Assembly: GCA_937934115.1 (NCBI GenBank)
Contig: CALHAH010000015.1
Location: forward strand, 62,001 to 126,000
DNA length: 64,000 nucleotides
Source: an uncultured Thermoanaerobaculum sp.
Lineage (GTDB): Bacteria; Acidobacteriota; Thermoanaerobaculia; Thermoanaerobaculales; Thermoanaerobaculaceae
Direction of reading: 5' to 3'
Both the position numbers and the translations under genes were made by a program. The notes under the pieces were generated by a model that was given only the letters and a program-made list of their open reading frames with translations, did no database searches and was not told where the DNA came from. The stretch's first letter is position 1. Each line of letters begins with the position of its first letter. Below, piece by piece: positions 2,040 to 5,981 of this stretch.

Positions 2040-2713
2040 CCGTGGAAGAGCTCTTGGCTTCCTCGCCCCTGTTTTCGGGGCTAGGACAAGGTGAGTTAGC
2101 CGCTTTGGCACACACCGCCCAGCGCTTGGAGTACGAACCCGATGAGGTCATCTTCCCCATGAACTCGTTGGGCGATGGCCTTTACCTTTTGGCTTCTGGG
2201 CGGGTGAAGGTGGTGGTGCCCTCTCCGCAAGGCAAAGAGGTCATCCTGGCCACTTTGGGCCCTGGGGCTTTCTTCGGCGAAATGTCGCTCATTGACGACG
2301 AACCCCGTTCAGCTTCCGTGATCGCGCAGCTGCCTTCGGTGGTCTACCGTGTCCATCGGCAGGATTTTGCGCGTTTCTTGGATAACTCACCTTCCGTCGC
2401 CCGTGCGTTACTCCGGGAGCTTTCCCGTCGGTTGCGGCGGGCCAACGCCCACATGGAAAACCTGGTGAGCATGGATGTTTTGGGACGTTTGGCGCGCTAC
2501 CTTATGGAGCTGGCGCGAGAGCATGGAGAAGCGCTGGGGAACGGCTGGGTGGCGGTCCGCAGACCCACCCACCACGACATTGCCGCAGCTATCGGTACCA
2601 CTCGCGAAACCGTTACGCGCCTCATGAGCGAGTTGGAATCCCGAGGGCTCATCATGGTGGAGGGAAAAATGGCGTACATTCGCGAGGAAACCTTGAGCCG
2701 GGAGGGGGTGTGA
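2033..2713 (+). CDS. Crp/Fnr-family transcriptional regulator
   Basis: 226 residues. The N-terminal cyclic-nucleotide-binding barrel is recognised by GAFFGEMSLIDDEPRSASV, close to the phosphate-binding cassette consensus of CRP proteins, and the C-terminal winged helix by HHDIAAAIGTTRETVTRLMS. The cassette suggests that a cyclic nucleotide could bind; no Fnr-type N-terminal cysteine cluster is present. ATG 2033 was preferred because it places the start right after the lipoprotein's last sense codons (7-nt overlap); the frame is open farther upstream inside that gene. Its targets cannot be read from the window. Confidence 0.9.
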   Translation: MLTVEELLASSPLFSGLGQGELAALAHTAQRLEYEPDEVIFPMNSLGDGLYLLASGRVKVVVPSPQGKEVILATLGPGAFFGEMSLIDDEPRSASVIAQLPSVVYRVHRQDFARFLDNSPSVARALLRELSRRLRRANAHMENLVSMDVLGRLARYLMELAREHGEALGNGWVAVRRPTHHDIAAAIGTTRETVTRLMSELESRGLIMVEGKMAYIREETLSREGV

Positions 2714-3351
2714 GAGAGGGAAGTGGCGCCCGCAAAGCAGTTGGGGGTGTGGCGCAACGGGCCGCGCAAGAGGTGCGCTTGGCTTTGCGCCCATACACGA
2801 TCCCCAACGGCATCACGTTGCTGCGTTTGGTATTGGTGCCCCTGTTTGCGCTGGCCACGGTGGAGCGGAACTACACCTGGGCGTTGGTGATCTTTTGCCT
2901 GGCCGGGCTTTCCGATGCCCTGGACGGGGCTTTAGCCCGCTGGCTTTCGGCGCGCTCGCTTTTGGGCACGTATTTGGACCCCATTGCCGACAAGGCCCTT
3001 TTGGTCACCGCGTACATCGTGCTCACCTGGCCGGCTCCAGGGGTGGTGAGCATCCCGCTATGGTTGACGGTGATTGCGCTTTCCCGGGACGTGCTCATCG
3101 TGCTCGTAGCGCTGTTGCTGTACCTGGGGGCCGGGATCCGCGAGTTTTCCCCATCGCTTTTGGGGAAGGCCACCACCGTGGCACACATTGTCACCGTAGG
3201 TTTGGTGGTGGTGGCTAACCTTTACCCGATTGAGGAGTTTTGGCTTTCGCTTTTGTTTTACACGGCTTTTGCCCTCACGCTCCTTTCCGGCTTGCACTAC
3301 CTAGCGAGGGCGGCAGCGCACGTGGAGAAACTTCACGATGCCGGTGGATAA
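2710..3351 (+). CDS. pgsA: CDP-diacylglycerol--glycerol-3-phosphate 3-phosphatidyltransferase
   Basis: 213 residues, GTG start overlapping the preceding TGA. It would condense CDP-diacylglycerol with glycerol-3-phosphate in the inner membrane, the committed step to phosphatidylglycerol. The CDP-alcohol phosphotransferase signature is complete: the DALDGALAR segment followed by GTYLDPIADK supplies the D-x2-DG-x2-AR-x8-G-x3-D-x3-D pattern. Several hydrophobic spans follow, as in the family. Other CDP-alcohol transferases share this motif, so the choice of PgsA over a relative rests on size and overall resemblance. Confidence 0.85.
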   Translation: MREGSGARKAVGGVAQRAAQEVRLALRPYTIPNGITLLRLVLVPLFALATVERNYTWALVIFCLAGLSDALDGALARWLSARSLLGTYLDPIADKALLVTAYIVLTWPAPGVVSIPLWLTVIALSRDVLIVLVALLLYLGAGIREFSPSLLGKATTVAHIVTVGLVVVANLYPIEEFWLSLLFYTAFALTLLSGLHYLARAAAHVEKLHDAGG

Positions 3352-4669
3352 TAGTCAAAAGCTGCGCTTGTTTTTGGTGGTGGGCGCGACAGCCCTGCTT
3401 GCCGGCGTGGTCTTTGCTTGGTCAAAGCCCCTTTTCCCCTTGTTGATAGGTTTTTTTCTGGCTTACCTCGCCCATCCACTGGCTTCGTGGTTTGCCCGCC
3501 ACCGCTTGCCGCGGATTTTAGGCTTTGCGGTGGTGCTTTTGGGCGTGCTGGGGGTGATGGCCGTGGTGTTTCTGGTTTTTTTACCAGCGGTGGTGCATGA
3601 GCTTTCCGCTGCAGCTGCAAAGCTTCCCACGTGGCAAGAGGTGCTCCACGAGCGCCTGGAGCCACTGTTCGCCGATGCGCAAAAGCGTTACCCCGAAGCC
3701 TTTGCGGTGGTTTCCGAAAAAGTTACGGCCTATTTCCAGGAAAAGCTTCCGCAGGTAGCGCCGCGCTTGGCGGCCTGGCTGGGGCAAGTCGTCCTTTCCT
3801 CGCTGTCGTTGGTTTCTACCCTCTTGGGGTTGGTGGTGGCCTTGGTGATTGGCGCATACCTCACCGCCGATTTCCCCAAATTTTTGACCACTTTGCGCTT
3901 GCTCATCCCACGGCCGGTGCTGGCCACAGTGGAGGCGGTGGTGTTGGAGGTGCACCAGGTGCTGGGGGCTTTTTTCCGGGGTCAGCTGTTGGTGGCCTTG
4001 GCTTTGGCCCTCATGTACACGGGAGGATTGGCCCTGGTGGGCGCGCCCCTGGCGTTGGTGGTGGGCCCCCTGGCCGGTCTTTTTTCCTTGGTGCCGTACT
4101 TGGGCTTGGTGGTGGGTGCCGGCTTGGCTTTGCTTTTGACGCTTGTGGAACACCAGGACCTGCTGCACCCCGGGCTTGCGCTTTTGGTTTTCGTGGTGGC
4201 GCAAAACGTGGAGGGGTGGATTCTGACCCCCAAGCTGGTGGGTAGAGGAGTGGGTCTGCATCCGGTTTGGGTACTGGTGGCTTTGCTCGTGGGTGGTGAA
4301 CTCTTTGGTATTGCCGGTGTGGTGGTGGCGGTGCCGGTGGCAGCTGCCCTGCGAGTGGTGTTGGCGAAAGCCCTAGCGGCGTACCGTGCCAGCAAGCTTT
4401 ACCGTGGTGAACCGGTGGAAGCGGTGCTTTACGTTCGGCCCCACTGCCGCCTATGCGACGAGCTCAAGGCTTTCTTGCCATCGGTGGCGGACTTTTACGG
4501 TCTGGCAGTGCGCGAGGTCAACGTGGAGGAAGACCCGGATTTCCTTTCGCGCTATGGGGAAAAGGTGCCAGTGCTGGTGGTGGCAGGGCGGGAGGTGGTG
4601 TGGGGTAAGGTCACCGCCGGCGAGCTGGCCAGCAAGCTGCGGGAAGTGCTCGGAGGGGCCAGTGATTGA
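3338..4669 (+). CDS. AI-2E-type membrane permease fused to a C-terminal glutaredoxin-like domain
   Basis: 443 residues. Residues about 1-350 form an AI-2E/PerM-type permease: repeated hydrophobic spans and the family-typical segment with LVPYLGLVVG and a long central soluble region. From residue about 361 the protein continues without a stop into a thioredoxin-fold module of about 83 residues (EAVLYVRPHCRLCDELK), with a C-x-x-C pair at 370/373 and VPVLVV supplying the cis-Pro strand, as in DUF836/glutaredoxin-like proteins. Its start overlaps pgsA by 14 nt and its stop overlaps the next start. The substrate is unknown; AI-2 export is not implied by the family name. Confidence 0.85.
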   Translation: MPVDNSQKLRLFLVVGATALLAGVVFAWSKPLFPLLIGFFLAYLAHPLASWFARHRLPRILGFAVVLLGVLGVMAVVFLVFLPAVVHELSAAAAKLPTWQEVLHERLEPLFADAQKRYPEAFAVVSEKVTAYFQEKLPQVAPRLAAWLGQVVLSSLSLVSTLLGLVVALVIGAYLTADFPKFLTTLRLLIPRPVLATVEAVVLEVHQVLGAFFRGQLLVALALALMYTGGLALVGAPLALVVGPLAGLFSLVPYLGLVVGAGLALLLTLVEHQDLLHPGLALLVFVVAQNVEGWILTPKLVGRGVGLHPVWVLVALLVGGELFGIAGVVVAVPVAAALRVVLAKALAAYRASKLYRGEPVEAVLYVRPHCRLCDELKAFLPSVADFYGLAVREVNVEEDPDFLSRYGEKVPVLVVAGREVVWGKVTAGELASKLREVLGGASD

Positions 4670-5981
4670 GCGGCGAATGCTTTTTGGGGGGCACTACGCT
4701 GCCGAGTTGGAAGCCCCCGAGGTGTATAAAGCCAGGCGGCAACGGGTAGTGGAGGCTTTAGGCGAGCGTGGGGTGGCGGTGCTTTTGGGGGCCAGCGACA
4801 CCCGTTCTTACGGCGATGTGGGCACCTTCCGGCAAAACCCCAGCTTCTTTTACCTCACCGGTGTAGAAATCCCCAACGCGGCGCTCCTTTTTTCCCGCGA
4901 GCGCGATGAACTTTACCTTCCCGCCCGCCGTCCCGCATTGGAAGCGTGGTTGGGGCCGAAGTTTGGCCCCGGGGAAGAGGCAGCTGCGGCTTTGGGTTTT
5001 GGCGCGGTGAAAGACGTGCAAGCCACCGAGGTGGTGGTGGAGGCGCGAAGGCGACCGGTGCCGGGGTTCGAGGACACTTTGGCTGATCTCGTAGTGGCCG
5101 GTTGCGAGCTTTGGCTACCGTTTCCGCCGCCTTTACTTTCCGCGCCGGTGACACCCGAGCAGGATCTTGTCCTGCGCTTGCGGCAGAAACTTCCAAACGT
5201 GGTGGTGCACGACCTCACCCCGATCTTGACGCACCTGCGCCTGCGCAAGGAACCCGGGGAGGTGGCGCTTCTGCAAAAGGCGGTGACCGTCACGGCGGAG
5301 GCTGTGAAGGCCGCGGCGGGAGTTTTGCGACCTGGGGTGAGTGAGGCGGCACTGGAGGGTGCAGCGTACGCCACCTTGCGACGATTGGGCGCGGAGGGGT
5401 GGTCCTTTCCCCCCATCGTGGGCTCAGGGTTCGCGGGGTGTGTGCTGCACTACGACCAAAACATTGGGTTTTGCCAGGCAGGCGAGCTGGTGGTGGTGGA
5501 CATCGGTGCGAGATACGGGTACTACTGCGGGGACCTCACCAGGACGTTCCCAGTTTCCGGCCGCTTCACGCCTCGTCAAGCACAGCTTTACGACGCGGTA
5601 CTGGCGGCGTACAACGCAGCGGTCGCCGTGCTGCGGCCGGGAGTAAAAATTGGGGATTTGCGGCACGCTGCCTACGAAAGCCTCAAAGCTTCACGCCTTA
5701 CGGGGCCCTCAGGGGTTCCCGTTAGCGAGTACTTCATCCACGGTTTGGGGCACTTTTTGGGGCTGGAGGCGCACGATGTGGGCGGGGAGGGCCCGGTTCT
5801 GGAACCTGGCATGGTGCTTACGGTGGAGCCTGGGATTTACCTCGCAGAAGAAGGGATTGGCATCCGCATTGAGGATGACTACCTGATAACCGAAGGGGGA
5901 GCCCAATGCCTTACGCCCGCCTGGCTTCCCCGGGAACGGGAGGCGGTGGAAGCCCTGGTGGGAAGGGAAAGCGGGCGCTAA
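4662..5981 (+). CDS. pepP: Xaa-Pro aminopeptidase (M24B, pita-bread fold)
   Basis: 439 residues. It removes an N-terminal residue preceding proline and probably uses two metal ions. The metal ligands are visible: Asp in VVVDIGARYGYY, Asp in CGDLTRTF, His in HGLGHFLGLEAHDVG, Glu in VLTVEPGIYL and Glu in GIRIEDDYL. The N-terminal creatinase-like domain is present (NPSFFYLTGVE). GTG 4662 fits GGAGG at 4652-4656 and overlaps the previous stop; ATG 4677 is an alternative but lies too far from that site. It may be translated by coupling to the transporter-glutaredoxin gene. Confidence 0.9.
   Translation: MIERRMLFGGHYAAELEAPEVYKARRQRVVEALGERGVAVLLGASDTRSYGDVGTFRQNPSFFYLTGVEIPNAALLFSRERDELYLPARRPALEAWLGPKFGPGEEAAAALGFGAVKDVQATEVVVEARRRPVPGFEDTLADLVVAGCELWLPFPPPLLSAPVTPEQDLVLRLRQKLPNVVVHDLTPILTHLRLRKEPGEVALLQKAVTVTAEAVKAAAGVLRPGVSEAALEGAAYATLRRLGAEGWSFPPIVGSGFAGCVLHYDQNIGFCQAGELVVVDIGARYGYYCGDLTRTFPVSGRFTPRQAQLYDAVLAAYNAAVAVLRPGVKIGDLRHAAYESLKASRLTGPSGVPVSEYFIHGLGHFLGLEAHDVGGEGPVLEPGMVLTVEPGIYLAEEGIGIRIEDDYLITEGGAQCLTPAWLPREREAVEALVGRESGR

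Follow-up and report, generated by a model that had tools for sequence, protein, structure and literature searches.

What does a thioredoxin-like domain do at the end of a membrane permease? The question is raised by a stretch of DNA of 64,000 nucleotides (the window) from an uncultured Thermoanaerobaculum sp., whose genome comprises 2.42 Mb in 52 contigs. An initial annotation described one gene of this stretch as an AI-2E-type permease joined in frame to a C-terminal glutaredoxin-like domain, and suggested that the fusion may couple redox state to transport or reduce a cytoplasmic partner. The joined frame is as described, running uninterrupted for 443 residues from its ATG, and it overlaps both of its neighbors, by 14 bases with pgsA and by 8 bases with pepP. 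A scan for promoters and terminators gave no signal above chance, and plasmid records included none covering 80% of the query.

Features of the fusion locus, in window coordinates; residue numbers refer to the fusion protein.
Feature	Coordinates	Strand	Evidence
pgsA-like CDP-alcohol phosphatidyltransferase	2710..3351	+	PF01066, E 2.5e-30; gene order conserved
AI-2E permease-DUF836 fusion gene	3338..4669	+	single ORF, ATG to TGA, 443 aa plus stop
AI-2E_transport domain, residues 18-343, without cysteine	3389..4366	+	PF01594, E 1.5e-52; cysteine positions
Basic permease-derived tail, residues 344-358, KALAAYRASKLYRGE, and junction	4367..4411	+	stand-alone orthologues stop shortly past motif
Glrx-like (DUF836) domain, residues 363-434	4424..4639	+	PF05768, E 2e-12 (full protein), 9.9e-14 (domain alone)
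C370-R-L-C373 motif (CxLC)	4445..4456	+	sequence
P411, putative cis-proline	4568..4570	+	invariant across 5/5 fusions
pepP-like Xaa-Pro aminopeptidase (M24)	4662..5981	+	PF00557 and PF05195

The permease half is clear from its profile match, which scores 179.2 bits against a Pfam cut-off of 34.3 and covers positions 8-324 of 327. About 360 residues had been assigned to it; the end falls at about 343-358, a trivial difference. The C-terminal half carries the expected C-x-x-C pair, C370 and C373, together with the VPVLVV strand, in which P411 lies (KVPVLVV). A search of this part against DUF836 profiles, the check that had been proposed, returned PF05768 at 47.7 bits for the full protein and 51.9 for the domain alone, over the curated cut-off of 26. 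The classical glutaredoxin profile PF00462 (cut-off 22.9) scored 24.1 bits with the domain alone and 20 bits in the full protein. Modeled by itself with AlphaFold2, the domain is predicted to adopt a thioredoxin fold (mean pLDDT 86; beta-alpha-beta-alpha-beta-beta-alpha), and Foldseek matched the predicted structure with probability 1.00 to thioredoxins (1v98), to mouse 1wjk, a DUF836 relative, and to mycoredoxin-3 of C. glutamicum (8pr6). The full-length model, built from two sequences, is poor (mean pLDDT 53.6), so that no interface between the domains can be read from it.

Two observations had been named that would mark the fusion as spurious: a break in the frame near positions 4410-4440, or the lack of the joined form in close relatives. 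Neither was found. The frame is intact in two further Thermoanaerobaculum genomes, G001 (86% identity) and G002 (locus L033, 73%), and, elsewhere in the family Thermoanaerobaculaceae, in two genomes from a second genus (g5), G010 (53%) and G013 (55%). The two-domain order thus recurs in four other genomes and two genera, as had been anticipated for a real fusion. That an assembly error or frameshift united two genes is practically out of the question: nothing was found in favor of it, the same joined frame is present in four further assemblies, and purifying selection acts on either side of the junction. All five carriers, among 17 genomes of the family, hold the gene between pgsA, directly upstream, and pepP; the g5 pair shares with the window the order miaA, hfq, TPR gene, crp, pgsA, fusion, pepP, nadA. 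The fusion gene is also the only AI-2E match and the only DUF836 match in the window's genome. The TPR gene of this neighborhood (825-2039, + strand), between hfq and crp, encodes a TPR-like protein that evolves fast and gives a weak match to S-layer homology; it occupies this position throughout the family, where identity is about 36-41%.

The remaining 12 genomes of the family have no fusion gene after pgsA and zero DUF836 matches. In ten of them pepP lies next to pgsA, the aligned ends being 51-99 bases apart; in the other two, neither the fusion nor pepP follows pgsA within the DNA fetched. All but one of the 12 have an AI-2E gene elsewhere. Outside the family, no fusion was found among 149 genomes of the class (searched with PF05768) or in samples of about 300-400 genomes of the phylum, and a single scan of genome contigs returned only the G002 locus. 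The longest frames with a DUF836 match, when read, proved to be glutaredoxin-thioredoxin reductase, VanZ-DUF836 or DUF836-methyltransferase proteins, or to be without permease sequence; the last were mostly open frames of high-GC DNA. The genomes searched therefore provide five fusion sequences only, and no description of the architecture was found in the open-access literature. We conclude that two known families are combined here in a genuine fusion, a new domain architecture seen, among the genomes searched, solely in Thermoanaerobaculaceae.

The position of the junction, at about residue 358, provides some information on how the fusion arose. The best permease matches in other Acidobacteriota cover about residues 10-360 only, and several of these frames, where read, stop shortly past the motif YRxSxLYxG, the point at which the DUF836 domain of the window protein starts; permease orthologues of the phylum without DUF836 end at the junction. 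A pgsA homologue lies immediately upstream, so that the AI-2E permease is directly 3' of pgsA, in 13 of the 18 best matches in Acidobacteriota (a contig end truncates one of the remaining five), and in 0 of 25 lower-scoring matches from the class and order, which are probably paralogues. This conserved pair hints at a link between this branch of permeases and phospholipid synthesis. Since the permeases of the phylum usually follow pgsA and end at the junction, the pgsA-linked permease appears to have come first, and the DUF836 domain would have been added to it within the family. In a four-gene tree of the family, in which deep nodes are weak, G010 and G013 group together (support 89) and branch off before the other members of their genus. 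This placement fits inheritance with several losses; transfer of the fusion between members of the family is possible.

The strength of selection on the two halves was compared by the Nei-Gojobori method. Among the three Thermoanaerobaculum proteins the permease has dN/dS ratios of 0.07-0.14 and the C-terminal part 0.21-0.49; for the g5 pair, in which the first cysteine is gone, the values are 0.12 and 0.27-0.31, respectively. All are approximate, given the high synonymous divergence (0.6-1.9). No part of the protein is less conserved than the domain, whose evolutionary rate is about 2-4 times that of the permease, yet it is under purifying selection. That the domain is constrained in the g5 pair as well, despite the broken CxxC, suggests a function for which dithiol chemistry is not strictly needed. 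The faster evolution of the domain, the loss of the CxxC in g5 and the absence of the whole gene from most of the family would also be expected of a passenger, joined by a nearly neutral read-through event, fixed by drift and now decaying in g5. This reading is highly doubtful, however, because the closest pairs retain a domain dN/dS of 0.21-0.31, and because the frame, together with P411, G388, G407 and C373, is kept in all five fusions.

The cysteines bear directly on the proposed redox coupling. The first cysteine serves as nucleophile in enzymes of the thioredoxin fold. That residue is serine in both g5 fusions (loci L004 and L005), where HCRLC of the window protein aligns with DSAPC and DSPRC and each protein has one cysteine; the g5 domains give a DUF836-like score, under the Pfam curated cut-off. 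All five fusions keep the equivalent of C373, which makes a monothiol role possible, and the CxLC is whole in all three Thermoanaerobaculum proteins, so that redox chemistry could matter in that genus. The window protein has no cysteines besides C370 and C373, and its permease part therefore offers no internal thiol target. An intramolecular disulfide between domain and permease is rejected for this protein, there being no further cysteine with which to form it. What stands of the original proposal is the pair of domains, their fusion and its recurrence; the idea that redox state is simply coupled to transport, or that a partner is reduced, is weakened by the serine in the sister genus, by the cysteine-free permease and by the low conservation of the domain.

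One form of coupling is a switch: the C370-C373 dithiol would respond to thiol redox state with a conformational change of the domain that opens or closes the permease. The intact CxLC of the three Thermoanaerobaculum fusions, the thioredoxin fold with P411, and a genome that encodes thioredoxin reductase are all in keeping with such a switch. It would have to operate within the domain or between subunits, as there is no other cysteine; the first cysteine is replaced in g5 and the domain evolves faster than the permease that it would control. We regard a switch as unlikely, although deserving of some weight.

Another form is a thiol reductase tethered to the membrane, with the permease as anchor and a catalytic thioredoxin-like domain reducing a membrane-bound or newly transported partner. 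In its favor, the CxLC motif is typical of DUF836, and the genome has one clear thioredoxin reductase, while a search for the ATP domain of glutathione synthetase gave no match in it. The missing match argues against glutathione-dependent reduction of the classical glutaredoxin kind; the domain, if active, is more likely of thioredoxin than of glutathione type, and a thioredoxin-type role would fit the tethered enzyme. A similar caution over naming was made for Deinococcus, which lacks glutathione (PMC8945050), and the type species of the present genus is a strict anaerobe with a hot spring as its source (PMC4056298). Against a tethered reductase stand the loss of the nucleophile in the sister genus, the absence of the gene from 12 of 17 family genomes, which would make any such function dispensable, and the failure to identify a partner; its probability is small.

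Five basic residues (R339, K344, R350, K353 and R356) at or just past the end of the last hydrophobic stretch favor, by the positive-inside rule, a cytoplasmic C-terminus, and the domain is thus probably cytoplasmic. Counting against this placement is a PhoA fusion that located the C-terminus of another AI-2E member, UPF0118 of H. andaensis, in the periplasm (PMC7221264).

The account that we prefer, and to which we give an even chance of being right, is that the domain serves a pgsA-linked permease as an accessory module, probably on the cytoplasmic side, capable of dithiol chemistry in Thermoanaerobaculum and not dependent on it across the family. A stand-alone DUF836 module, with its CxLC and thioredoxin fold, would have joined the natural C-terminus of the permease in an ancestor within Thermoanaerobaculaceae. 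Transport would be the task of the permease half, and the small C-terminal domain may provide contacts with other subunits or with a partner, or regulate the permease. The potentially redox-active pair, kept in Thermoanaerobaculum, would on this account not be the conserved reason for which the domain is retained.

A bolder proposal is a dithiol-gated AI-2E permease, in which C370-C373 of Thermoanaerobaculum would govern transport directly, on the cytoplasmic side, and the sister genus would have turned the same domain into a thiol-independent regulator. This is a long shot. Were it true, the family would hold a natural series, from redox-active to redox-dead, of controls on a transporter encoded by a gene with a link to phosphatidylglycerol synthesis. 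The natural fusion and its relative without the nucleophile make, in any case, a clean pair for testing whether redox chemistry matters.

Fusion of DUF836 to other partners is also seen elsewhere in Acidobacteriota. In family f7, at seven loci of the same class, DUF836 is in frame with pterin-4a-carbinolamine dehydratase, an arrangement that recurs in many genomes; in the protein of one of these loci (L042) Pfam finds both domains, with E-values of 3e-16 and 7.3e-29. A second membrane protein that ends in a DUF836 domain, here behind a VanZ-like membrane domain, is encoded by an ORF at 908-2182 of locus L133 (genome G335; start codon tentative), and an ORF on the reverse strand of locus L137 (1675-2667; genome G159) joins a class I methyltransferase domain in frame to DUF836. 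Four Acidobacteriota genomes carry a glutaredoxin domain at the N-terminus of a thioredoxin reductase-like protein. The dehydratase, VanZ-like and methyltransferase fusions resemble the window protein in the use of DUF836 as an add-on, and differ from it in their partner domains.

Comparison with the parent families places the two halves. AI-2E proteins are widespread and poorly understood transporters of varied function. The window protein matches this family (PF01594, TC 2.A.86; TqsA/YdgG, UPF0118, YtvI, CxpE) along the Pfam domain, and differs from it in having an additional C-terminal thioredoxin-fold domain. It falls well under the NCBIfam cut-off for YtvI and, at 176.7 bits, does not reach the equivalog cut-off of 675 for the chloramphenicol efflux protein CxpE (NF045801); function is known to vary between members of the family (PMC7221264). 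Its permease is similar in sequence to the exporter TqsA, whose structure has been solved (PDB 7nb6; E 6.1e-9); assembly as a pentamer is a feature of TqsA, and the likeness of the window protein to 7nb6 is one of sequence only. DUF836 proteins are, for their part, little characterized. With the Glrx-like DUF836 family (PF05768; mouse 1WJK, mycoredoxin-3 8PR6), which DR_0057-type proteins of Deinococcus also resemble, the window domain has in common the CxLC, P411 and the predicted thioredoxin fold; it differs in being fused to a permease instead of standing alone.
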